Source: Clostridia bacterium
GTDB taxonomy: Bacteria; Bacillota; Clostridia; UBA1381
Length of the DNA: 45,488 nucleotides
Assembly: GCA_017443895.1 (NCBI GenBank)
Contig: JAFSXU010000057.1
Location: 1-45,488, forward strand
Direction of reading: 5' to 3'
The translations under genes and the position numbers were made by a program. Shown here piece by piece: positions 34,536-45,265 of this stretch; positions within the stretch are counted from its first letter, which is position 1; every line of letters starts with the position of its first letter. The notes beneath the pieces were generated by a model. The model saw only the letters and a list, made by a program, of their open reading frames with translations, did no database searches and had not been told where the DNA came from.

Positions 34536-35414
34536 ATGTACAAATCAGATTATGAAATCAAAAAAGAGCTTTGCGAAATTGGTAGAAGAATCTATAATGA
34601 TGGTTTTGTTGCCGCAAATGACGGTAACTTTTCTGTTAAGATAGACGACAATACATACTATGTAACTCCTACCGGCGTTTCAAAGGGCTTTATGACACCT
34701 GAAATGATTTGCAAGGTTGACGGCGAGGGTAAGTTAAAGGAATCAAACGGTCCTTGGCGTCCGTCATCAGAGTTTAAGATGCACTTAAAGGTTTATCAGG
34801 AAAGACCTGATGTAAAATCAGTTGTGCATGCTCATCCTCCGATTGCAACATCATTTGCCATTGCAGGCATTCCGCTTGATAAGCTCATCATGCCTGAGGC
34901 TATTATTTTCCTCGGTGCGGTTCCGATTGCTCAGTACGGTACTCCGTCAACAATGGAAATCCCTGAGTCATTAACTCCGTATCTTCAGGACTATGATGCA
35001 ATCTTACTTGCAAACCACGGCGCTCTGTCATTCGGCTGCGACTTGAATACTGCATTCTTCAGAATGGAATCAACAGAGTTCTATGCTAAGCTTTTATTCT
35101 ACGCAAGAATGCTCGGCGGTGAGAAGGAAATTCCTTGCGGTGAGGTTAAGAAGCTTGTTGAGTTAAGAAAAGAGTTCGGCGTTCCGGGCAAGCACCCAAT
35201 GGAGAAATTATGTCCGGGCTGCTATGCAGGCGACGATACATGTTCAATGTCACCGACTGATGCAAACGAGAAGTATGGAGTTGAGTCATCAGCCGCATAT
35301 CACGGTTTCCAGCCGTTACCTTCACAGGTTTGCCCTACTCCTTCACAGAGCCCTGATATCGAGGCTATTGTTAAAGAGGTTACAAAGAGAGTTCTTGAAC
35401 AGTACAATAAATAA
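34536..35414 (+). CDS. Class II aldolase (fuculose/rhamnulose-1-phosphate type) with encapsulation peptide
   Basis: 292 residues. Cleaves a ketose-1-phosphate to dihydroxyacetone phosphate and L-lactaldehyde using zinc. Residues E79, H98, H100 and H161 have exactly the spacing of FucA E73, H92, H94 and H155 (a constant offset of 6), so the zinc site and catalytic base are intact. The family domain ends near 215; a Cys-rich piece (CPGCYAGDDTC) and a Pro/Ser linker lead to a C-terminal amphipathic helix SPDIEAIVKEVTKRVLEQYN, a typical BMC cargo-targeting peptide. First gene of the BMC operon. Fuculose versus rhamnulose phosphate cannot be decided from sequence; the nearby rhamnosidase favours rhamnose. 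Confidence 0.92.
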   Translation: MYKSDYEIKKELCEIGRRIYNDGFVAANDGNFSVKIDDNTYYVTPTGVSKGFMTPEMICKVDGEGKLKESNGPWRPSSEFKMHLKVYQERPDVKSVVHAHPPIATSFAIAGIPLDKLIMPEAIIFLGAVPIAQYGTPSTMEIPESLTPYLQDYDAILLANHGALSFGCDLNTAFFRMESTEFYAKLLFYARMLGGEKEIPCGEVKKLVELRKEFGVPGKHPMEKLCPGCYAGDDTCSMSPTDANEKYGVESSAAYHGFQPLPSQVCPTPSQSPDIEAIVKEVTKRVLEQYNK

Positions 35415-35437
35415 AAATTCTTAGGAGGTAGCAGAGG

Positions 35438-35920
35438 TTGAAAACGATTGACGAATTGTTGTCAGAGGTTGCAAAAAAACTTAATGTTACCCAAGAGAGT
35501 CTTAAAGAGAGAGTTGACACTCTTACGCTGTCCGTTGCAAAGGAAATCGCATATGCCATTGAGGCAGGGGCCGAAGGGTTGGGCTTAAATGTTGTTATAT
35601 CCGTTTATAACGACGGTGCAAATCCAATCCTGCTCCATGCAATGGATAATTCCTATATCGCAAGCACAAGGATTGCACAGGATAAAGCCTACACTGCGGT
35701 ATCGCTTAAAATGCCCACCCACATTGCGCTCCGTGAGTCAAGAGGCGGAAGCCTTGATGGACTTACAAACGGAAACGGAATAATGCTTTTGGGCGGAGGC
35801 TATCCGCTTGAGGCTAAGGGCAGAATTTTTGGCGGTGTAGGAGTATCGGGCGGAACAAAGGAACAGGATATGTTACTTGCAAAGCTCGGCGCAGATTATT
35901 TTAAGACTCGTATGAAATGA
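35438..35920 (+). CDS. GlcG/HbpS/PduO C-terminal-like protein in the BMC operon
   Basis: 160 residues, TTG start after TTAGGAGGT. The body belongs to the heme-degrading/GlcG fold: AYAIEAGAEGLGLNVVISVYNDGANPILLHAMDN (split here by ~30 residues), IAQDKAYTAVSLKMPT and a Gly-rich end GGGYPLEAKGRIFGGVGVSGG. Such proteins accompany many Pdu-type and GRM-type loci, where they are thought to handle cofactors. The first 20 residues (TIDELLSEVAKKL) could be another targeting helix (inference). No adenosyltransferase N-domain is present. Confidence 0.85.
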   Translation: MKTIDELLSEVAKKLNVTQESLKERVDTLTLSVAKEIAYAIEAGAEGLGLNVVISVYNDGANPILLHAMDNSYIASTRIAQDKAYTAVSLKMPTHIALRESRGGSLDGLTNGNGIMLLGGGYPLEAKGRIFGGVGVSGGTKEQDMLLAKLGADYFKTRMK

Positions 35921-35991
35921 CAAAAATACTTCCTATAATAATAAGAAGTAACAGTATTAAATACTTAAAATAAAAAGGAGGTTAAATTAAA

Positions 35992-37416
35992 TTGGTAGAT
36001 GAAAATAAGATAAGCCAATTGGTTCGTGAGGTTCTTTCGGATATGGATTTATCGGGTATCGAAACAAAACCGCGCCATCAGCTCGGTGTGTTTGATACTA
36101 TGGAAGAGGCAATCGCAGCTTGTAACAAGGCTTATACAACATTTAGATACTACAACAAAGAGCAAAGAGAAAACATCATCAAAGAGATAAGAAAGCTCAC
36201 TCATGCCGAGGCTGAAATAATGGCAAAGCTTGCGGTTGAGGATACAAAGATGGGCAATGTTTACCATAAGACCTTAAAGCACCACCTTGTTGCAGATAAG
36301 ACTCTTGGTACAGAGGATTTAGACACAAGGGCGTTCTCGGGTGACGGCGGTTTGACATTGATTGAGATGGCGCCATACGGTATTATCGGTGCGATAACGC
36401 CGTCAACAAACCCAAGCTGTACGGTAATCTGTAACAGTATATGTATGCTTGCAGGCGGTAACGGTGTAATTTTTAACCCACACCCGCACGCAAAGAGAAT
36501 TTCAGCATACGCAGTTGACCTTGTAAACCGTGCAATCTTAGCTGCAGGCGGTCCTGAAAACATTGTATGTACAGTTAAAAATCCTACAATGGAAACATCA
36601 AATAAGATGGTAAACGATCCGTCTGTAAAAATGCTTGTTGCAACAGGCGGCCCGGGCGTTGTAAAGATGCTCTTGTCAAGCGGTAAGAAAGCAATCGGTG
36701 CAGGTGCAGGTAACCCTCCTGTTATCGTAGACGATACGGCGGATATTCCAAAGGCCGCAAAGGATATTATCGACGGTTGTACATTTGACAACAACCTTCC
36801 TTGTATCGCAGAAAAGGAATGTTTCGTATTAAGAAGCGTTGCCGATGAGCTTATACACCATATGTTAAAGAACGGTGCATATCTTTTAACCGATGCACAG
36901 GTTAAACAGCTTGAAGATGTTGTCCTTGTTTGGTCAAAGCCAAAGAAGGAGGGCGACAAGCCAAAGCGTGTTATCAATAAGGACTGGGTTGGCCGTGATG
37001 CCAAGAAGATTTTGGCACAGATCGGTGTACAGGCTAAGGACGATATAAGATGTATCATTTGTGAAACTGAGTTTTCACAGGCATTTGTTCAGACTGAGCT
37101 TATGATGCCTATTCTTCCAATCGTAAGAGTTGACACATTTGACGAGGCAGTTGAGATGGCTGTAAAGGCAGAGCATGGTAACCGCCACAGTGCACACTTA
37201 CATTCAAAGAATGTAGACCATATGACTCAGTATGCTAAGGCAATCTGCACAACAATTTTTGTAAAGAATGCGCCAAGCTATGCAGGTATCGGCTTTAATG
37301 CAGAGGGTTGGACAACTTTCACAATTGCAGGTCCTACAGGCGAGGGTATTACATCACCGCGTAGCTTTACAAGAATAAGAAGATGCGTATTGTCAGACGC
37401 TCTTAACATCATTTAA
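35992..37416 (+). CDS. pduP: CoA-acylating aldehyde dehydrogenase (PduP-type)
   Basis: 474 residues, TTG start after AAAAAGGAGG. Oxidises an aldehyde to its acyl-CoA with NAD+; here lactaldehyde to lactyl-CoA is the likely reaction. N-terminal helix DENKISQLVREVLSDMDL targets it to the shell. GAITPSTNPSCTVICN is the NAD/CoA region and the catalytic Cys is C271 in DNNLPCIAEKE, the PduP/EutE hallmark. NADH made here can be recycled by the alcohol dehydrogenase encoded next. Confidence 0.94.
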   Translation: MVDENKISQLVREVLSDMDLSGIETKPRHQLGVFDTMEEAIAACNKAYTTFRYYNKEQRENIIKEIRKLTHAEAEIMAKLAVEDTKMGNVYHKTLKHHLVADKTLGTEDLDTRAFSGDGGLTLIEMAPYGIIGAITPSTNPSCTVICNSICMLAGGNGVIFNPHPHAKRISAYAVDLVNRAILAAGGPENIVCTVKNPTMETSNKMVNDPSVKMLVATGGPGVVKMLLSSGKKAIGAGAGNPPVIVDDTADIPKAAKDIIDGCTFDNNLPCIAEKECFVLRSVADELIHHMLKNGAYLLTDAQVKQLEDVVLVWSKPKKEGDKPKRVINKDWVGRDAKKILAQIGVQAKDDIRCIICETEFSQAFVQTELMMPILPIVRVDTFDEAVEMAVKAEHGNRHSAHLHSKNVDHMTQYAKAICTTIFVKNAPSYAGIGFNAEGWTTFTIAGPTGEGITSPRSFTRIRRCVLSDALNII

Positions 37417-37437
37417 TTTAAAATAAGGAGAGCAAAA

Positions 37438-38679
37438 ATGGCTATAAACGAAAATGAGATTGCTGCATTAGTACAGCAGGTATTAAAGGAAATGACAGGC
37501 GGTGCTCCAAGTACAAACACTGTTGCTCCTCAAAGGTCATATTCAGCTCCGTCAGGCGGCGGCGATATTCCAAAGAACGCAACCGTTGCCATGATGACAG
37601 AGTTAAAGCACTTTGAATTACAGCAGTATCCAATCCCCGAGCTTGGCGATGATGATATCTTAGTCAGAGTTGAGGGTTGCGGAGTTTGCGGAACGGACGC
37701 ACACGAGTATAAAAACGACCCATTCTCACTTATCCCCGTTGTTTTAGGCCACGAGGGAACAGGCGAGATCGTAAAGATGGGTAAGAATGTTAAAAAGGAC
37801 AGCGCAGGCAAGCCTTTGAACATTGGCGATAAGGTTGTTACCTGTATGATCTTTAAAGACGATCCCGATATCACAATGTTCGACCTTAATAAGCAGAATG
37901 TCGGCGGCGCAGATGTTTACGGTTTGTTGCCTGATGATAATGTTCACTTAAACGGTTGGTTCAGTGATTACCTCTTGATTAGAGGCGGATCGAGCGTATT
38001 CAATGTATCAGACCTTGACCTTGACTCAAGAATTTTGATTGAGCCGTGTGCGGTTTTGGTACACGCAGTAGAGAGAGCAAAGACAACAAACATTCTGAGA
38101 TTTAACTCAAGAGTGGTTGTTCAGGGTTGCGGACCTATCGGTCTTATCTGTATCGCAGTATTAAGAACAATGGGTATTGAAAACATTGTTGCTGTTGACG
38201 GTAACGAGCAGAGATTGGCATTTGCAAAGCGTATGGGTGCAGGTGAAACTGTAAACTTTATGAACCATAAGGGTATTGACGCTTTGGCAGGTGCGGTAAA
38301 GGACGCATTCGGCGGTTATCTTGCAGACTTTGCATTCCAGTGTACAGGCTCACCTGTTGCACACGCAAACATCTATAAGTTTATCCGTAACGGTGGCGGA
38401 CTTTGCGAGCTTGGTTTCTTCATCAACGGCGGTGATGCAACAATCAATCCGCACTTTGACTTGTGTTCAAAGGAGATTACACTTGTTGGCTCTTGGGTAT
38501 ACACATTAAGAGATTATGCGACAACCTTCGATTTCTTAAAGAGAGCACAGGCAATCGGCTTACCTATGAAGGAGCTTATCACACATCGCTTCCCGCTTGA
38601 TAAGATGAACGAGGCGCTTGAAACAAACCTTGCTCAGAAGGGCTTAAAGATAGCGTATGTGAGAAAAGATTTAATCTAA
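37438..38679 (+). CDS. Zinc-dependent alcohol dehydrogenase with encapsulation peptide
   Basis: 413 residues, AAGGAG upstream. Medium-chain dehydrogenase that probably reduces L-lactaldehyde to 1,2-propanediol with NADH. Residues ~3-20 (INENEIAALVQQVLKEMTG) form the targeting helix and ~21-45 a Ser/Pro/Gly linker. Catalytic zinc ligands C84 (GVCGTD), H105 and E106 (LGHEG) are present. The four-Cys structural zinc loop is absent, replaced by an insert around VTCMIFKDDPDITMFDL. GCGPIGL and the Asp of AVDGNE indicate NAD(H). Most Pdu-type loci use an iron-type PduQ instead. Confidence 0.92.
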   Translation: MAINENEIAALVQQVLKEMTGGAPSTNTVAPQRSYSAPSGGGDIPKNATVAMMTELKHFELQQYPIPELGDDDILVRVEGCGVCGTDAHEYKNDPFSLIPVVLGHEGTGEIVKMGKNVKKDSAGKPLNIGDKVVTCMIFKDDPDITMFDLNKQNVGGADVYGLLPDDNVHLNGWFSDYLLIRGGSSVFNVSDLDLDSRILIEPCAVLVHAVERAKTTNILRFNSRVVVQGCGPIGLICIAVLRTMGIENIVAVDGNEQRLAFAKRMGAGETVNFMNHKGIDALAGAVKDAFGGYLADFAFQCTGSPVAHANIYKFIRNGGGLCELGFFINGGDATINPHFDLCSKEITLVGSWVYTLRDYATTFDFLKRAQAIGLPMKELITHRFPLDKMNEALETNLAQKGLKIAYVRKDLI

Positions 38680-38716
38680 TCATTAGTAAAAATAACCAAT
38701 GAAAGGATTTAACACC

Positions 38717-39058
38717 ATGAATGACGCAGTTGGCATCGTAGAGATGTATGGATTTACCTCCGCAATAACCGCGGCGGACGCGGCGGCAAAGGCGGCAGAT
38801 GTAAAGATAATTGCAATAGATTCAAATAAGCCTGCAAACGCAGAATCGGCAGAGGTACCGCTTATCATGGCAGTAAAAATGCAGGGTAGCGTATCTGCGG
38901 TCGAGGCGGCAGTTGCGGCGGCAGCAGAGGCTGCCGAAAAGGTATCGGGGCTTATTTGTAAGCATGTCATACCTCGTCCGACAGACGATGCTATGAAAAT
39001 GGCAAAGCGTGTAAGTGTCGGAAAGCACAAGGTAGGACATATTCCAATGAACGGTTAA
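38717..39058 (+). CDS. BMC-H shell protein with an atypical pore
   Basis: 113 residues from ATG 38717, since the earlier ATG at 38699 lies on the ribosome site AAAGGA. Single BMC domain (GIVEMYGFTSAITAADAAAKAADV .. EAAEKVSGLICKHVIPRP in outline). The pore region reads IDSNKPANAESAEVPLIMAV instead of the usual K/R-IGSG-L, so this hexamer should have a different channel. Very Ala-rich. First of four single-domain shell genes. Confidence 0.9.
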   Translation: MNDAVGIVEMYGFTSAITAADAAAKAADVKIIAIDSNKPANAESAEVPLIMAVKMQGSVSAVEAAVAAAAEAAEKVSGLICKHVIPRPTDDAMKMAKRVSVGKHKVGHIPMNG

Positions 39059-39093
39059 GAGGTTTTCGTTGACAGAAAGGATAATTTAATATT

Positions 39094-39363
39094 ATGCAAG
39101 CTTTAGGTTTTATTGAAACAAGAAGTTTGACCGGTGCAATCGAAGCCTCTGATGCGATGACTAAGGCGGCGGAGGTTGTCCTGGTCGGAACAGAGAAAAT
39201 CGGTTCAGGTCTTGTAAATGTTGTTGTGATGGGCGAGGTTGACGCTGTTAAAGCGGCAGTCGAGGCAGGTGAAAAGGTCGCACGGGAATTGGGTGAGGTT
39301 TACGCCACAAACATTATCCCCCGTCCGCATGACGATGTAGCCAAGATATTACCTACAATTTAA
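39094..39363 (+). CDS. BMC-H shell protein (PduA/PduJ-like)
   Basis: 89 residues, the canonical hexamer subunit: [18 protein letters not shown], pore loop EKIGSGLV and [10 protein letters not shown]. Forms facets of the shell and passes small polar metabolites. AAAGGATAA upstream. Confidence 0.95.
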
Positions 39364-39383
39364 TAGAGAGGGAGGTAATACAT

Positions 39384-39845
39384 ATGGCTAAGGAATTTTC
39401 ACTTGGACTTGTTGAAGTAAGCGGTTTAGGTCATGCAATCATCATGCTTGACGATATGCTAAAAGCCGGTGATGTAGAGTTTGTTGCAACCGAGCGAAAG
39501 CTCGGCGGAAGATTGGTAACAATCGTTATAACGGGCGATATTTCATCAGTACAGGCGGCGGTTGACGCAGGAGTGGCAAGAGCAAAGCAATGCGGTGATA
39601 AGATTTATAAAGCGTCGCAGGTAATAGCCCGTCCACACCCCGAAATCTTCCCGTTCCTCCACCTTAACGAGGAGGAGGGCGAGCCTGTAAATACAGAGTC
39701 GGCAGGTACTCATGTCGGAAGCGTCGGTAAAAAGACTGCTCCAAAGACGGCAAGAACAGCACGCGCGACAAAATCCGCAACTAAAACAACTAAAACTACA
39801 ACAAGAAAAAGAACAACAAAAAAATCACAAAAGAGTGATAAATAA
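39384..39845 (+). CDS. BMC-H shell protein with histone-like basic tail
   Basis: 153 residues, GGGAGGT upstream. Residues 1-~90 are a normal BMC domain (GLVEVSGLGHAIIMLDDM, pore ERKLGGRLV, VIARPHPEIFPFL). An acidic joint (NEEEGEPVN) leads to a ~40-residue C-terminal tail of Lys, Arg, Thr and Ala only (KKTAPKTARTARATKSATK and on), with 15 basic residues in the last 38. It resembles bacterial H1-like histone tails. It could touch DNA, RNA or acidic cargo. The tail should project from the C-terminal face of the hexamer. Confidence 0.92.
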   Translation: MAKEFSLGLVEVSGLGHAIIMLDDMLKAGDVEFVATERKLGGRLVTIVITGDISSVQAAVDAGVARAKQCGDKIYKASQVIARPHPEIFPFLHLNEEEGEPVNTESAGTHVGSVGKKTAPKTARTARATKSATKTTKTTTRKRTTKKSQKSDK

Positions 39846-39951
39846 CTAAGGTTTAGAGCAGAAATGCTTTAGATATAAAAAGTCCCACAGGGCAAGAAAA
39901 AAATAAATTAAGTCAATCAGGGCGATAGCCCAAAAATAGGAGGATAAAAAA

Positions 39952-40230
39952 ATGGCAGTAGAAGCATTAGGTATGGTAGAAACAAGAGGTTTAGTAGCTG
40001 CAATTGAGGCTGCTGATGCAATGGTTAAGGCTGCAAATGTAACTTTAATCGGAACAGAGAGAATCGGTTCAGGTCTTGTTACTGTAATGGTAAGAGGCGA
40101 TGTTGGTGCAGTTCAGGCTGCAACAGATGCCGGTTCAGCAGCCGGCGCAAGATTAGGTGAGCTTGTATCAGTTCATGTAATCCCTCGTCCACACAATGAT
40201 GTTGAGAAGATTTTACCATCAATTGACTAA
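39952..40230 (+). CDS. BMC-H shell protein (PduA/PduJ-like), second canonical copy
   Basis: 92 residues, AGGAGG upstream. [17 protein letters not shown], pore loop ERIGSGLV and [17 protein letters not shown]. Closely similar to the shell protein at 39094; codon use differs, so this is not a recent duplication. A 106-base gap before it has no gene. Confidence 0.95.
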
Positions 40231-40261
40231 TTAAAAGCTGATTAGTAGCGAGATATACGGT

Positions 40262-40370
40262 TGGACTGCCATAAGGGCAGTCCATACCCTAATTCTCGAA
40301 AAATGTGTGATACATAATTTACGAAAAAAAATCGGAAATTTTCCCCAAAATAAGCTTGATTTTATGGGGG
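40262..40370 (+). promoter_or_regulatory. Two hairpins between the shell genes and pduL
   Basis: GGACTGCC-ATAAG-GGCAGTCC (about 40263-40283) and CCCCAAAATA..ATTTTATGGGG (about 40343-40369). Neither has a proper T-run, so they may set RNA stability and lower expression of the enzymes relative to the shell. A lone TATAAT at 40405-40410 could be a weak internal promoter. Confidence 0.5.
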
Positions 40371-40443
40371 CTTGGTTTTGTGCGGTTAAAATTTCTGTAA
40401 TATATATAATTTAAGTGCATTTGCACAACGGGAGTTTGGCAAA

Positions 40444-41085
40444 ATGGATAATAGTTATTTAGAAAAACTTATCTCACAGACTGTTGTTGATATTTTGAAG
40501 CAGAAGGAAGAGGAGTCCGGTATAAAAGTCGGAGTTTCCGCCCGTCATGTACATTTATCACAGAAGGATCTTGAACTGCTCTTTGGTGAGGGCTATGAGT
40601 TACACCCTAAAAAGATGCTCATGGGCGACCAGTTCGCCGCAGAGGAGTGCGTAACGCTTGTAAGTCCTAACTTAAAGACTATTGAGGGCGTAAGAGTTTT
40701 AGGCCCTGTAAGAAAGCAGTCCCAGGTTGAGATTTCAAGAACGGACACATTTAAGTTAAAGGTTTCTCCGCCTGTTCGTCCGTCAGGAGAGTTAAAGGGC
40801 TCGGCACCTATGGCGCTTGTTGGTCCAAAAGGCAGTATATTCTTAAATGAATGCTGTATTATTGCTAACCGTCATATCCACCTCACACCTGAGGACGCTA
40901 AAAAATACGGCGTAAAGGATAATGACCTTGTTGATGTTATCATAGAAAACTCAAAACCGACAAAGTTTTATGATGTTCAGGTCAGAGTTCATCCTGAATT
41001 CAATACAGAAATGCATATCGACACAGATGATGCAAATGCCTGTGCAATAAAGACAGGCGACAGAGTCAGAATCATTACAAAGTAG
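40444..41085 (+). CDS. pduL: Phosphate propanoyltransferase (PduL)
   Basis: 213 residues, GGGAG upstream. Exchanges the acyl group between CoA and phosphate, recycling CoA inside the shell and giving an acyl phosphate (lactyl phosphate if the cargo is lactaldehyde). N-terminal helix SYLEKLISQTVVDILKQ is the targeting peptide. Two beta-barrel domains carry the metal-binding motifs SARHVHLS and NRHIHLT plus EMHIDTDDANA. An acyl kinase to finish the pathway is not in the window. Confidence 0.95.
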   Translation: MDNSYLEKLISQTVVDILKQKEEESGIKVGVSARHVHLSQKDLELLFGEGYELHPKKMLMGDQFAAEECVTLVSPNLKTIEGVRVLGPVRKQSQVEISRTDTFKLKVSPPVRPSGELKGSAPMALVGPKGSIFLNECCIIANRHIHLTPEDAKKYGVKDNDLVDVIIENSKPTKFYDVQVRVHPEFNTEMHIDTDDANACAIKTGDRVRIITK

Positions 41086-41142
41086 CCTTGGGCTTATGCA
41101 AGCTGTAAATGAACAGAGTATATAGTATATGAGGTAAAGAGA

Positions 41143-41406
41143 ATGATTATAGGCAGAGTATATGGAAGCATTGTTTCAACGCATAAGCTTGACACGCTTG
41201 TCGGATACAAGTTTATGCTTGTGCAGTGCATAGAAAACGGAAAATTGGTAGATAAGTACCTCGTTGCGGTTGACGGTGTCGGTGCCGGCATGGGCGAGGA
41301 TGTTATCATTGCCACAGGCAGTGCGGCGCGGGTCGCACTTAAAAAGAACGACACCGTTCCGGTGGACGCTGTTATCGTCGGAATTTTAGACGAGAAACAG
41401 GCATAA
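41143..41406 (+). CDS. BMC-P shell vertex protein (EutN/CcmL family)
   Basis: 87 residues, GAGGTAAAGAG upstream. Pentamer that closes the shell corners: MIIGRVYGSIVSTHKLDTL, VAVDGVGAGMGEDVIIATGSAAR and VDAVIVGILD. The only pentamer gene seen here; PVM-type loci often have three. Confidence 0.95.
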   Translation: MIIGRVYGSIVSTHKLDTLVGYKFMLVQCIENGKLVDKYLVAVDGVGAGMGEDVIIATGSAARVALKKNDTVPVDAVIVGILDEKQA

Positions 41407-41464
41407 TTAACAACGAAAGCTATTACATAATATTTAGGTAAATTATTTCGGGGAAGGAAAAGCA

Positions 41465-42799
41465 ATGAAGTTTGAAGAACTTGTAAAAATCGTTTACGAT
41501 GCAGGTATCGTCGGAGCAGGCGGTGCAGGTTTCCCTACGCATAGGAAATTTTCGGATAAGGTTAAGCAGATTATTGTAAATGCGGCTGAGTGTGAGCCTT
41601 TAATGATGGTAGACCACCATATTTTAGAGCATCACCTGCAAGCGTTGATTGACACGCTTAATTTACTTATTGATACCCTTGGCGCTAACGAGGCGATTAT
41701 CGGTATAAAGGGTAAGAATATGCACCTGCTCGATCAAAAAATAGTTTCCTCACTCGCAGGTACAAAGGTAAGTATTCACGAAATCCCTGACATTTATCCT
41801 GCAGGTGATGAGGTTGTGCTTACATATGAAACAACAGGGAAAATAATACCGGAGGGCGCCATTCCCGTAATGGTCGGGGTAATGGTAATAAATGTTGAGA
41901 CTGTTTATAATATCTATAAAGCAGTTAATCGCCATGAGGCGGTAGTTGATAAGTATATCACTATCGGTGGCGACACGAAAGAGGATATTACCGTAAAAGC
42001 GCCTGTCGGTATGAAGATAAAGGAGTTATTGGCAGATGTCGGGTATTCCGACCTTGATAACAAGGCGGTAATTAACGGCGGTCCTATGATGGGTAAGCTC
42101 GTTGATTTAGAGAACGACACTGTTACAAAAACAACAAAGGGATTATTGATATTCCCAAAAACTCATTCAATTATACAGAGAAAGCTCCGCCCAATGCAGA
42201 TGACTCTGAAGCGTGCATCTGCGGCGTGCTGTAACTGTAGAATGTGCTCGGATATGTGTCCGAGAAACCTTTTAGGTTATGATTTGAATGTACATAAAAC
42301 TCTCCGTGCCGCATCGCATAGCGAGGTACAGGATACAGAGGCGTTTTTGCAGTCGGCACTTTGTTGTGGCTGCGGCGTATGTACTGTAATTGCGTGCCAG
42401 CAGGACCTTGACCCACAGGCAATTTCTATGGAAACAAAGGGACTCTTAGGCAAGCATGGCTTAAAGCGTCAGAATAACAAAGCCCCACAGAAGGTAAGGG
42501 AGGAGCGTGCATCACGACTTGTTTCGTCCCAGACTCTTATCGACAGGCTTGGTATCAGAAAATATGTTAAGGACAAGGTAGAGAGAAGATATATAGACTT
42601 TTCTCCGTCAACCGTGTACATTGACTTAAAACAGCATGTAGGAAAGCCTGCTACACCTACCGTTAAGGTCGGCGATAGAGTATCCGTCGGTGATGTCGTT
42701 GCACAGACTGCATTCGAGGATTTAGGCACAACAATGCATGCAAGTATAGACGGTACAGTAAAGGAAGTAACCGACAGATATGTTGCTATCGGTCGCTGA
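41465..42799 (+). CDS. pduS: PduS-like flavin/Fe-S electron-transfer protein (RnfC-like)
   Basis: 444 residues. GAGGAGFPTHRKFS near the start is the NADH/flavin-binding motif of RnfC/NuoF relatives, followed by an SLBB-like region. Two 4Fe-4S motifs: C255-x2-C258-x2-C261-x3-C265 and C300-x2-C303-x2-C306-x4-C311. The C-terminal ~60 residues are a lipoyl-like barrel. In Pdu systems PduS reduces cobalamin; no cobalamin enzyme is encoded here, so it more likely moves electrons between NADH and the shell, together with the PduT-like protein that follows. Confidence 0.93.
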   Translation: MKFEELVKIVYDAGIVGAGGAGFPTHRKFSDKVKQIIVNAAECEPLMMVDHHILEHHLQALIDTLNLLIDTLGANEAIIGIKGKNMHLLDQKIVSSLAGTKVSIHEIPDIYPAGDEVVLTYETTGKIIPEGAIPVMVGVMVINVETVYNIYKAVNRHEAVVDKYITIGGDTKEDITVKAPVGMKIKELLADVGYSDLDNKAVINGGPMMGKLVDLENDTVTKTTKGLLIFPKTHSIIQRKLRPMQMTLKRASAACCNCRMCSDMCPRNLLGYDLNVHKTLRAASHSEVQDTEAFLQSALCCGCGVCTVIACQQDLDPQAISMETKGLLGKHGLKRQNNKAPQKVREERASRLVSSQTLIDRLGIRKYVKDKVERRYIDFSPSTVYIDLKQHVGKPATPTVKVGDRVSVGDVVAQTAFEDLGTTMHASIDGTVKEVTDRYVAIGR

Positions 42800-42817
42800 T
42801 GTGGGGAGGAGAAGTAA

Positions 42818-43363
42818 ATGAATTCTATTGGTTTAGTTGAAGTTAAAAATGTTTCAAAGGGCGTAGTTGTAACTGATGAAATGCTAAAGAGCGCAGGTGT
42901 GCATCTTATTTCCTCAGGATCAGTTTGCCCGGGTAAATTTGTAACAATTGTCGGCGGTGAGTTGAGCGCTATTCATGCCGCCGTTGACCGTGCAGTTTTG
43001 GTTGCTGAGGATGCGTTGATTGATAAGTTTGTTATCGGTAACCTTGGCGAAAAAGTCTTTGAGGCTATTTGCGGAACTGCCGATGTAAAAGAGAAAAAGG
43101 CATTCGGTATCGTTGAAACCTTTACCGCTGCCAGCGCTATCGAGGCAGCCGATGCCGCCGTAAAATCAGGCGATATTGAGCTTATCGAGGTTCGTGTTGC
43201 CCGTGGTATGGCAGGCAAGTGTTTCGCCTCTATGACCGGTGATGTTGCCGATGTCAAAGCCGCCGTTGAGGCAGGCGCTGCCATCGCCGCAAACAGCGGT
43301 GTTCTTATCAATACCGAGGTTATTGCAAACCCACATCCGGAGTTATGGGAAGCAGTATTATAA
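42818..43363 (+). CDS. pduT: BMC-T tandem-domain shell protein with Fe-S pore (PduT-like)
   Basis: 181 residues, two BMC domains (GLVEVKNVSKGVVVTDEML and GIVETFTAASAIEAADAAV) forming a pseudo-hexameric trimer. The first-domain pore is SGSVCPGKF with Cys37, matching the Cys that binds a 4Fe-4S cluster at the three-fold axis in PduT (Cys38). It is encoded 18 bases after pduS, its usual partner, supporting electron passage through the shell. Last gene of the operon. Confidence 0.93.
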   Translation: MNSIGLVEVKNVSKGVVVTDEMLKSAGVHLISSGSVCPGKFVTIVGGELSAIHAAVDRAVLVAEDALIDKFVIGNLGEKVFEAICGTADVKEKKAFGIVETFTAASAIEAADAAVKSGDIELIEVRVARGMAGKCFASMTGDVADVKAAVEAGAAIAANSGVLINTEVIANPHPELWEAVL

Positions 43364-44603: not shown

Positions 44604-44628
44604 AAATAATAACTCCACGATAAGTGGG

Positions 44629-44657
44629 TTGTCTACACAGGCTCACTATGCTATGTT
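44629..44657 (+). promoter_or_regulatory. Possible promoter of the XRE-desulfoferrodoxin gene
   Basis: TTGTCT (44629-44634), 17 bases, TATGTT (44652-44657). Confidence 0.45.
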
Positions 44658-44680
44658 ATAAGCATAAGGAGGCGAAAAAA

Positions 44681-45265
44681 ATGGACAGATATGTAACAGG
44701 AGCTGTTATAAGAGCGCTCCGTGAACAGAAGAAAATGACACAGGAGGAGCTGGCAAGCAGGATTTTTGTGAGTGCAAAAGCGGTCAGTAAGTGGGAAACA
44801 GGGCAGGGCTTCCCCGATATAAGCCTGATAGAACCACTTTCCCGGGCACTTGATATTTCAGTTATAGAGCTGTTGTCGGGCGAGCATATCAAAAACACAA
44901 ACATAGCATCGAATATGGCAAAAAGTAAATTTTATGTATGTCCCGTATGCGCAAATGTAATCCATGCGACGGGTGAGGCTATGGTAAGCTGTTGCGGAAT
45001 TGTCCTGCCACCTCTTGAGGCGGAGGCATCGGATAGGGAGCACAGCATAAGCATAGAAGCAGTGGAAGACGAATACTATATAACACTCACACATTCCATG
45101 AGCAAGGAGCATTATATTTCATTCCTTGCAGCGGTGTCCGATCACGGTATACAGCTTTGTAAGCTCTACCCCGAAGAACATGCCGAGGCAAGGTTTAAAC
45201 GAAACAGGGTAAAAAGAATTTTGGCATACTGTAACAGACATGGACTGTTTGAAATCAAGCTGTGA
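44681..45265 (+). CDS. XRE regulator fused to a desulfoferrodoxin/superoxide-reductase-like domain
   Basis: 194 residues from ATG 44681 (AAGGAGG upstream). Residues ~5-65 are an XRE helix-turn-helix (MTQEELASRIFVSAKAVSKW). From ~82: FYVCPVCANVIHATGEAM and SCCGIVLPPLEA match the desulforedoxin Fe(Cys)4 module (CxxC..CC). Then EHSISIEA, LTHSMSKEHYISFL and AYCNRHGLF line up with the superoxide-reductase iron ligands (KHVP, HPM..HYI, C-x2-HG). All ligand positions seem kept, so the protein could sense superoxide, oxygen or iron by its own redox centres. The regulated genes are unknown. Confidence 0.88.
   Translation: MDRYVTGAVIRALREQKKMTQEELASRIFVSAKAVSKWETGQGFPDISLIEPLSRALDISVIELLSGEHIKNTNIASNMAKSKFYVCPVCANVIHATGEAMVSCCGIVLPPLEAEASDREHSISIEAVEDEYYITLTHSMSKEHYISFLAAVSDHGIQLCKLYPEEHAEARFKRNRVKRILAYCNRHGLFEIKL

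Follow-up and report, generated by a model that had tools for sequence, protein, structure and literature searches.

A polycationic tail on shell proteins of fucose/rhamnose-type microcompartments in Clostridia: a candidate nucleoid tether

The histone H1-like C-termini of PhaM, PhaF and AlgP are reported to bind DNA and to tether or space storage granules of PHA or polyphosphate on the nucleoid (PMC13052382, PMC9239181). In bacterial microcompartments (BMCs), deletion of PduK or EutK leaves the compartments polar (PMC9132943, PMC12487888), and nucleic-acid binding was proposed by the authors of the EutK study (PMC12487888). Here, we describe H3, a BMC-H shell protein of 153 amino acids with a strongly basic tail, which is encoded at 39384..39845 on the + strand of a 45,488-nucleotide contig from a Clostridia bacterium of the UBA1381 lineage (JAFSXU010000057.1, assembly GCA_017443895.1); this whole stretch is hereafter called the window. 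As in PhaM, PhaF and AlgP, a particle-binding domain is joined to a histone H1-like C-terminus. However, the particle-binding part of H3 is a building block of the shell of a protein microcompartment, and its tail is shorter, rich in threonine and accompanied in relatives by AT-hook motifs.

H3 also resembles EutK, a BMC-H protein with a positively charged C-terminal region similar to nucleic-acid-binding domains (PMC12487888). In contrast, the C-terminus of EutK is a folded domain, PF16365 (PMC12058022), whereas the H3 tail is predicted to be disordered and lacks a Pfam domain. EutK_C (PF16365) was not found in the H3 tail, where the only Pfam matches were chance ones at E-values of up to 5, and the NCBIfam EutK model covers only the BMC part of the protein (44.6 of 218 bits). 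One of the matches in the window's tail, to Dicty_REP (E 0.08), was rejected together with the others as an artefact of composition. The link to PduK is that Cphy_1181, which occupies the same operon position in a GRM5 locus, was matched to that protein (PMC3557285). However, the C-terminus of PduK carries a Cys-rich motif that is probably of the Fe-S kind (PMC12058022, PMC6325248), and cysteine, four of which form that motif, is absent from all 34 H3 tails compared below.

A ribosome-binding site (GGGAGG, 39370..39375) is located 9 bases upstream of the ATG of H3. The BMC domain (39399..39635) is non-permuted, matches PduA/EutM/CcmK/CsoS1-type chains among PDB sequences and is covered by the full PF00936 profile (residues 6-84, profile positions 1-75, E 5e-21), which places H3 among the BMC-H proteins. 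The tail consists of residues 93-153 (61 residues). Its proximal part, which the earlier note on this DNA had passed over, is acidic (residues 93-112, HLNEEEGEPVNTESAGTHVG, 39660..39719) and carries a SExAxTHVG motif in alignments of orthologues; it is followed by SVG and then by the distal basic part (residues 116-153, KKTAPKTARTARATKSATKTTKTTTRKRTTKKSQKSDK, 39729..39842). These last 38 residues comprise 11 Lys, 4 Arg, 12 Thr, 5 Ala and no hydrophobic residue, in exact agreement with the count of 15 Lys/Arg given in that note, and their isoelectric point is 12.0, compared with 6.05 for the first 92 residues. The last 16 residues (39795..39842) form a cationic terminus that reads RKRTTKK where relatives have RRGRPKK. 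Only one other 38-residue segment with at least 14 Lys/Arg and none of the residues VILMFWYC was found among approximately 451,000 in the open reading frames (ORFs) of the window and of the loci from L085 on, a set that leaves out most loci holding H3-family tails. From residue 92 on, the protein is predicted to be disordered (pLDDT <50) in a poor model built from 13 sequences (mean pLDDT 50.7), from which we took only two points, namely that the tail is disordered and that the elements follow each other in non-permuted order. With disorder taken from this model, H3 has the make-up of a histone H1-like tether, namely a particle-binding domain followed by a disordered terminus rich in Lys/Ala/Pro/Thr.

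Is such a tail a peculiarity of one genome? We compared the best matches in 60 relatives, which are the H3 orthologues, with named loci added from the genome collection; many of the genomes surveyed are draft assemblies. All 34 distinct tailed orthologues have a cationic end, with a mean net charge of +5.8 (range +3 to +7) in the last 16 residues. When the distal tails were shuffled, the corresponding mean was 3.8 (standard deviation 0.3), and none of 2000 shuffles reached the observed value. The base of the tail has the opposite character: over the 34 tails, the first 20 residues have a mean net charge of -3.1, and the acidic part with SExAxTHVG is common to these orthologues with few exceptions, followed by a linker of variable length, such that the tails range from 39 to 93 residues. 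We noted that SExAxTHVG (39660-39719 in the window), which is kept in most orthologues, may dock on the shell.

AT hooks bind the minor groove of DNA, and histone H1-like tails also bind DNA. An AT-hook-like sequence, [KR]RGR[PKSR], is present in 16 of the 34 tails, always within the last 18 residues, whereas shuffled tails gave a mean of 0.06 and a maximum of 2 such matches in 500 runs, and among 2786 unrelated ORFs in the loci, no more than 3 had the sequence in that position. Many H3 relatives resemble AT-hook proteins such as HMGA (PF02178) in their RRGRPKK-type ends, which exceed the Pfam cut-off in two genomes. In whole-genome scans, the Pfam AT_hook model matched BMC-H tails in 5 of 18 genomes, over the cut-off in G275 and G017 and below it in G170, G013 and G018; no match over the cut-off was obtained in 14 control genomes. 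The H3 of the window differs from these proteins. In its genus, the glycine of RGR is replaced (RKRTTKK, KRTRKTTAKK), so the tail is histone H1-like, and its classification as an AT-hook protein (PF02178) was rejected. A literature search found nothing joining bacterial microcompartments with AT hooks, nor Monoglobus with microcompartments. Judged by these comparisons, the H3 tail is not a chance feature.

Absence of the tail from close homologues, which the earlier note had named as evidence against its proposal, was not seen for nearly the whole family, and elsewhere a neighbouring shell gene bears an equivalent cationic extension. Among loci of the same type (aldolase, aldehyde dehydrogenase, PduL, PduS and PduT), 72 of 73 have exactly one such extension: a C-terminal tail on H3 in 37, a C-terminal tail with an AT-hook motif on the paralogue H1 in 5 and an N-terminal extension on the paralogue H4 in 30, with none in the remaining locus. 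Outside the window's family, the H3 orthologue is often tail-less. In family f47, the H1 counterpart bears a tail of 65-78 residues with KKRGRKPK or KKRGRPAK, and the N-terminus of the H4 counterpart is, in most other families, extended in frame by approximately 30-80 residues, which are rich in Lys/Ala/Thr, poor in hydrophobic residues and include few arginines (e.g., MAETKKKSTAKAAAKPAAKKTTSSASTKKAAPAPAK in L150). None of the tailed loci has an N-terminal extension with a start. The open frame that precedes H4 in the tailed loci L004, L005 and L016 was not counted as an extension, because its first 24 residues lack a methionine. Fisher's test of the mutual exclusion in its open-frame version gives p ~8e-15, although the loci are related and a few of them are near-duplicates. 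Because of this relatedness, it is the switches that should be counted, and there are about five: on the H3 tree, the extension label changes 5 times, and at least 4 changes are forced for the N-terminal state.

How might the extension have moved from one paralogue to another? In the family to which the window belongs, G008 (L024:764-940) and G005 (L027:1761-2060) have a tail-less H3 and an extended H4. In both, the DNA encoding the beginning of the H4 extension is homologous to that encoding the last part of the H3 tail of their relative L015. The local alignment scores are 51 for L015-L024, against a best of 37 in 2000 shuffles, and 40 for L015-L027, against a best of 31. These alignments indicate that, in L024 and L027, the segment between the two shell domains has changed genes, having switched between the end of H3 and the start of H4. 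Homology between tails and N-terminal extensions in more distant families was not established, as most alignments were near the shuffle level, and we claim it only for these two loci. In all 30 loci with an N-terminal extension (e.g., L150, L108, L110 and L138), an internal GGAGG and ATG follow the extension, so a long and a short form of H4 are probably made from one gene, as in PduB/PduB' (PMC9132943), the long form being predicted. An N-terminal extension in the H4 slot had been recorded without comment for Cphy_1182, in which only residues 73-161 match PduA (PMC3557285). In addition, tandem-BMC proteins of approximately 215 amino acids, in which an H1-like domain is fused to an H3-like one, occur in L028, L070, L071, L073, L107, L108, L112, L143, L152 and L156. 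The occurrence of this fusion in several families suggests that H1 and H3 are partners in one hexamer.

The concave side is where N- and C-terminal extensions of BMC-H proteins leave the domain (PMC5534457); according to the PduK study, this side lies outside (PMC9132943). From this established topology, we infer that the tail faces outward, and an extension at any of the three sites, C-terminal on H3 or H1 and N-terminal on H4, would reach the cytosol. Because these positions are interchangeable and the charge is kept, what matters would be a flexible polycation on the outside rather than contact with one shell neighbour. We therefore consider it probable that the tail, disordered and polycationic, acts as a tether on the cytosolic face: it would bind DNA and spread the compartments along the nucleoid, as has also been proposed for EutK and PduK. 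In such a mechanism, the BMC domain would build H3 into the shell, the acidic spacer with SExAxTHVG would keep the distal segment away from it, and the K/T/A/R-rich end would bind DNA non-specifically, mainly by charge, with additional minor-groove contacts in relatives bearing RRGRPKK. Through many weak contacts, each compartment would then stay on the nucleoid and be distributed along the cell, and both daughters could inherit compartments without a ParA/McdAB motor. The affinity of AT-hook and histone H1-like ends for DNA, the precedents of PhaM, PhaF and AlgP and of PduK and EutK, and the lack of a ParA gene are the reasons for which nucleoid tethering is held to be the most likely reading. 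We give about an even chance to the broader proposal that fucose/rhamnose-type compartments of Clostridia obey a rule of one polycationic tether per compartment. Under this rule, the DNA-binding module would be disordered and mobile and would have changed its place of attachment among the outward-facing termini of the paralogues, in some cases as one and the same piece of DNA. Histone H1-like tethers are a known kind; what would be new is such a nucleoid tether as a mobile module on the shell proteins of this compartment type.

McdA/McdB would do the same job of spreading compartments along the nucleoid, by an ATP-driven gradient, whereas the H3 tail would act as a passive tether. No ParA/CbiA-type match was found on the window's contig, and the 727 kb made up of the same-type loci and the window gave no ParA-like match either; the genome of the window has ParA/CbiA matches of its own on other contigs. 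The earlier note's statement that this DNA encodes no McdA/McdB pair thus holds as far as McdA is concerned. Its suggestion that the tail could bind the nucleoid is partly supported by the conservation of the tail, the AT-hook-like terminus in approximately half of the orthologues and the absence of a ParA-type gene nearby.

Other partners or roles of the tail were weighed against nucleoid tethering. The polycation might face outward and bind mainly RNA (mRNA, ribosomes) or another polyanion such as polyphosphate. A composition rich in K/A/T/P, like that of histone H1, is not specific for DNA, AlgP, which has a similar tail, associates with polyphosphate granules, and the tail of the window has no AT-hook core. 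Nevertheless, 16 of the 34 relatives share AT-hook-like RRGRPKK/RRGRSKK termini in one position, and a different family has such termini separately on H1. As AT hooks bind the DNA minor groove, these termini speak against this explanation, and we regard it as unlikely, if the least so among the alternatives. Somewhat less likely still is a tail that regulates shell assembly without a nucleic-acid partner, whether by charge repulsion, by spacing of compartments or hexamers, or by a link to acidic neighbours. H2, H4 and BMC-T are acidic (isoelectric points of 4.7-5.0) and H3 is basic, the H1-H3 fusions of other families allow tailed subunits to sit in mixed hexamers, and clustering likewise follows the loss of PduK (PMC9132943). 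Such a role, however, leaves unexplained both the AT-hook termini and the fact that an N-terminal position on one paralogue can stand in for a C-terminal one on another.

The earlier note also named a tail that faces the lumen and is bound to cargo; such a tail would bind acidic cargo or serve as a packaging signal. Terminal extensions are often used in cargo encapsulation; however, encapsulation peptides are amphipathic helices on the cargo, whereas the H3 tail has no hydrophobic residues and is predicted, by a low-confidence model, to be unstructured. Moreover, both termini of the non-permuted BMC-H fold lie on the concave, cytosol-facing side (PMC5534457, PMC9132943), which makes a lumenal tail improbable. 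Finally, the tail might have grown neutrally, by slippage in A-rich DNA at a permissive terminus. The variable length of the tail would fit, as would the comparison of G000 with G001, in which 15 of 53 codons in the tail, against 5 of 92 in the core, show an amino-acid change, and the tail also has two gaps. Against such growth, the terminal charge and motif are retained while the linker drifts, each locus has one extension and the loss at H3 is matched by a gain at H4; the one-extension pattern and the conserved terminus strongly disfavour it, and we assign it the smallest probability.

Several observations also weigh against nucleoid tethering. For every member, DNA binding and a positioning role are predictions, and disordered K/A/T-rich segments have other possible ligands, namely RNA, polyphosphate or acidic proteins. 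The tail of the window itself lacks the RGR core and is not an AT hook, most of the AT-hook matches are short and fall below the Pfam cut-off, and the tails of L013, L016 and L041 are neutral or slightly acidic in net charge overall and basic only at the end. The pattern counts come from related genomes, with only the five or so independent switches described above, and the N-terminal extensions contain a perfect internal start, so that their long form is a prediction. The pattern is also broken by L144, which has no extension, and by L026 (G029), which has a short acidic tail and no H4 in the stretch; a frameshift was rejected as the cause of these two exceptions, as the other frames contain no basic tail.

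H3 belongs to a microcompartment operon on the + strand (34536-43363) that extends from an aldolase to a PduT-like BMC-T. It begins with a class II aldolase of the fuculose/rhamnulose-phosphate type (34536..35414, PF00596), an HbpS-like protein (35438..35920, PF03928), an acylating aldehyde dehydrogenase of the PduP/EutE type (35992..37416, NF011927) and, by profile matches, a zinc alcohol dehydrogenase of the lactaldehyde reductase type (37438..38679). The BMC-H paralogues, likewise assigned by profile matches, are H1 (38699..39058), whose counterpart is AT-hook-tailed in one other family and fused to H3 in many others, H2 (39094..39363), which is canonical and tail-less, and, downstream of H3, the canonical H4 (39952..40230), which has no extension in the window. 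They are followed by the phosphate propanoyltransferase PduL (40444..41085, PF06130), a BMC-P pentamer protein of the EutN/CcmL type (41143..41406, PF03319), a PduS/RnfC-like electron-transfer protein (41465..42799, from the ORF list and a profile match) and the PduT-like BMC-T (42818..43363, profile matches). The gene order is the same as that of the GRM5 fucose/rhamnose locus of Clostridium phytofermentans and Roseburia (PMC3557285), and the window contains the GRM5 set of aldolase, lactaldehyde-reductase-type alcohol dehydrogenase, aldehyde dehydrogenase, PduL, PduS, PduT, BMC-H and BMC-P. In contrast to many relatives, which have a glycyl radical enzyme inside the locus, the operon of the window has none adjoining: no ORF for a glycyl radical diol dehydratase or its activase was seen in the window, and its contig gave no pyruvate formate-lyase (PFL)-like match. 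PFL-like matches occur on other contigs of the genome and were not assigned to a diol dehydratase. An ORF at 2576, read by eye as alpha-L-rhamnosidase-like, would fit rhamnose as a substrate.

Some further observations concern other loci and the end of the window. On another contig of the same genome (G000:C46:39101, L167), we recognised by eye a permuted PduU/EutS-like BMC-H beside an EutP/PduV-like GTPase. Other compartment types include BMC-H proteins with a long acidic linker and a Rho_N/SAP-like, putatively nucleic-acid-binding end (L136 ORF 3770 (+), L086, L114, L118 and L142); PF07498 matches the L136 end with 33 bits, the L086 and L136 ends match each other, and those of L114, L118 and L142 were recognised by eye. 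In a different compartment type, a BMC-H protein bears an N-terminal extension with the AT-hook-like sequence KRRGRPRKSD (L095 ORF 7273 (+), L103 ORF 4221 (-)). The ORF at 44624-45265 of the window encodes an N-terminal helix-turn-helix and a C-terminal part that resembles desulfoferrodoxin (NCBIfam TIGR00320, 40 bits, below the cut-off).

How metabolosomes that lack McdAB spread through the cell and pass to daughter cells is an open question. Pdu compartments in Salmonella are unaffected by McdAB or ParA/MinD (PMC12866334), and PduK and EutK have been implicated without a known partner. The tails described here offer a concrete and removable candidate for a tether, and their natural variants, with an AT hook or plain Lys/Arg and in a C-terminal or N-terminal position, make the question of tethering directly testable. 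The tail module may also serve as a tool for sending designed shells to the chromosome. If the proposed rule is true, these Clostridia would possess a ParA-independent system in which protein organelles hitchhike on the chromosome.
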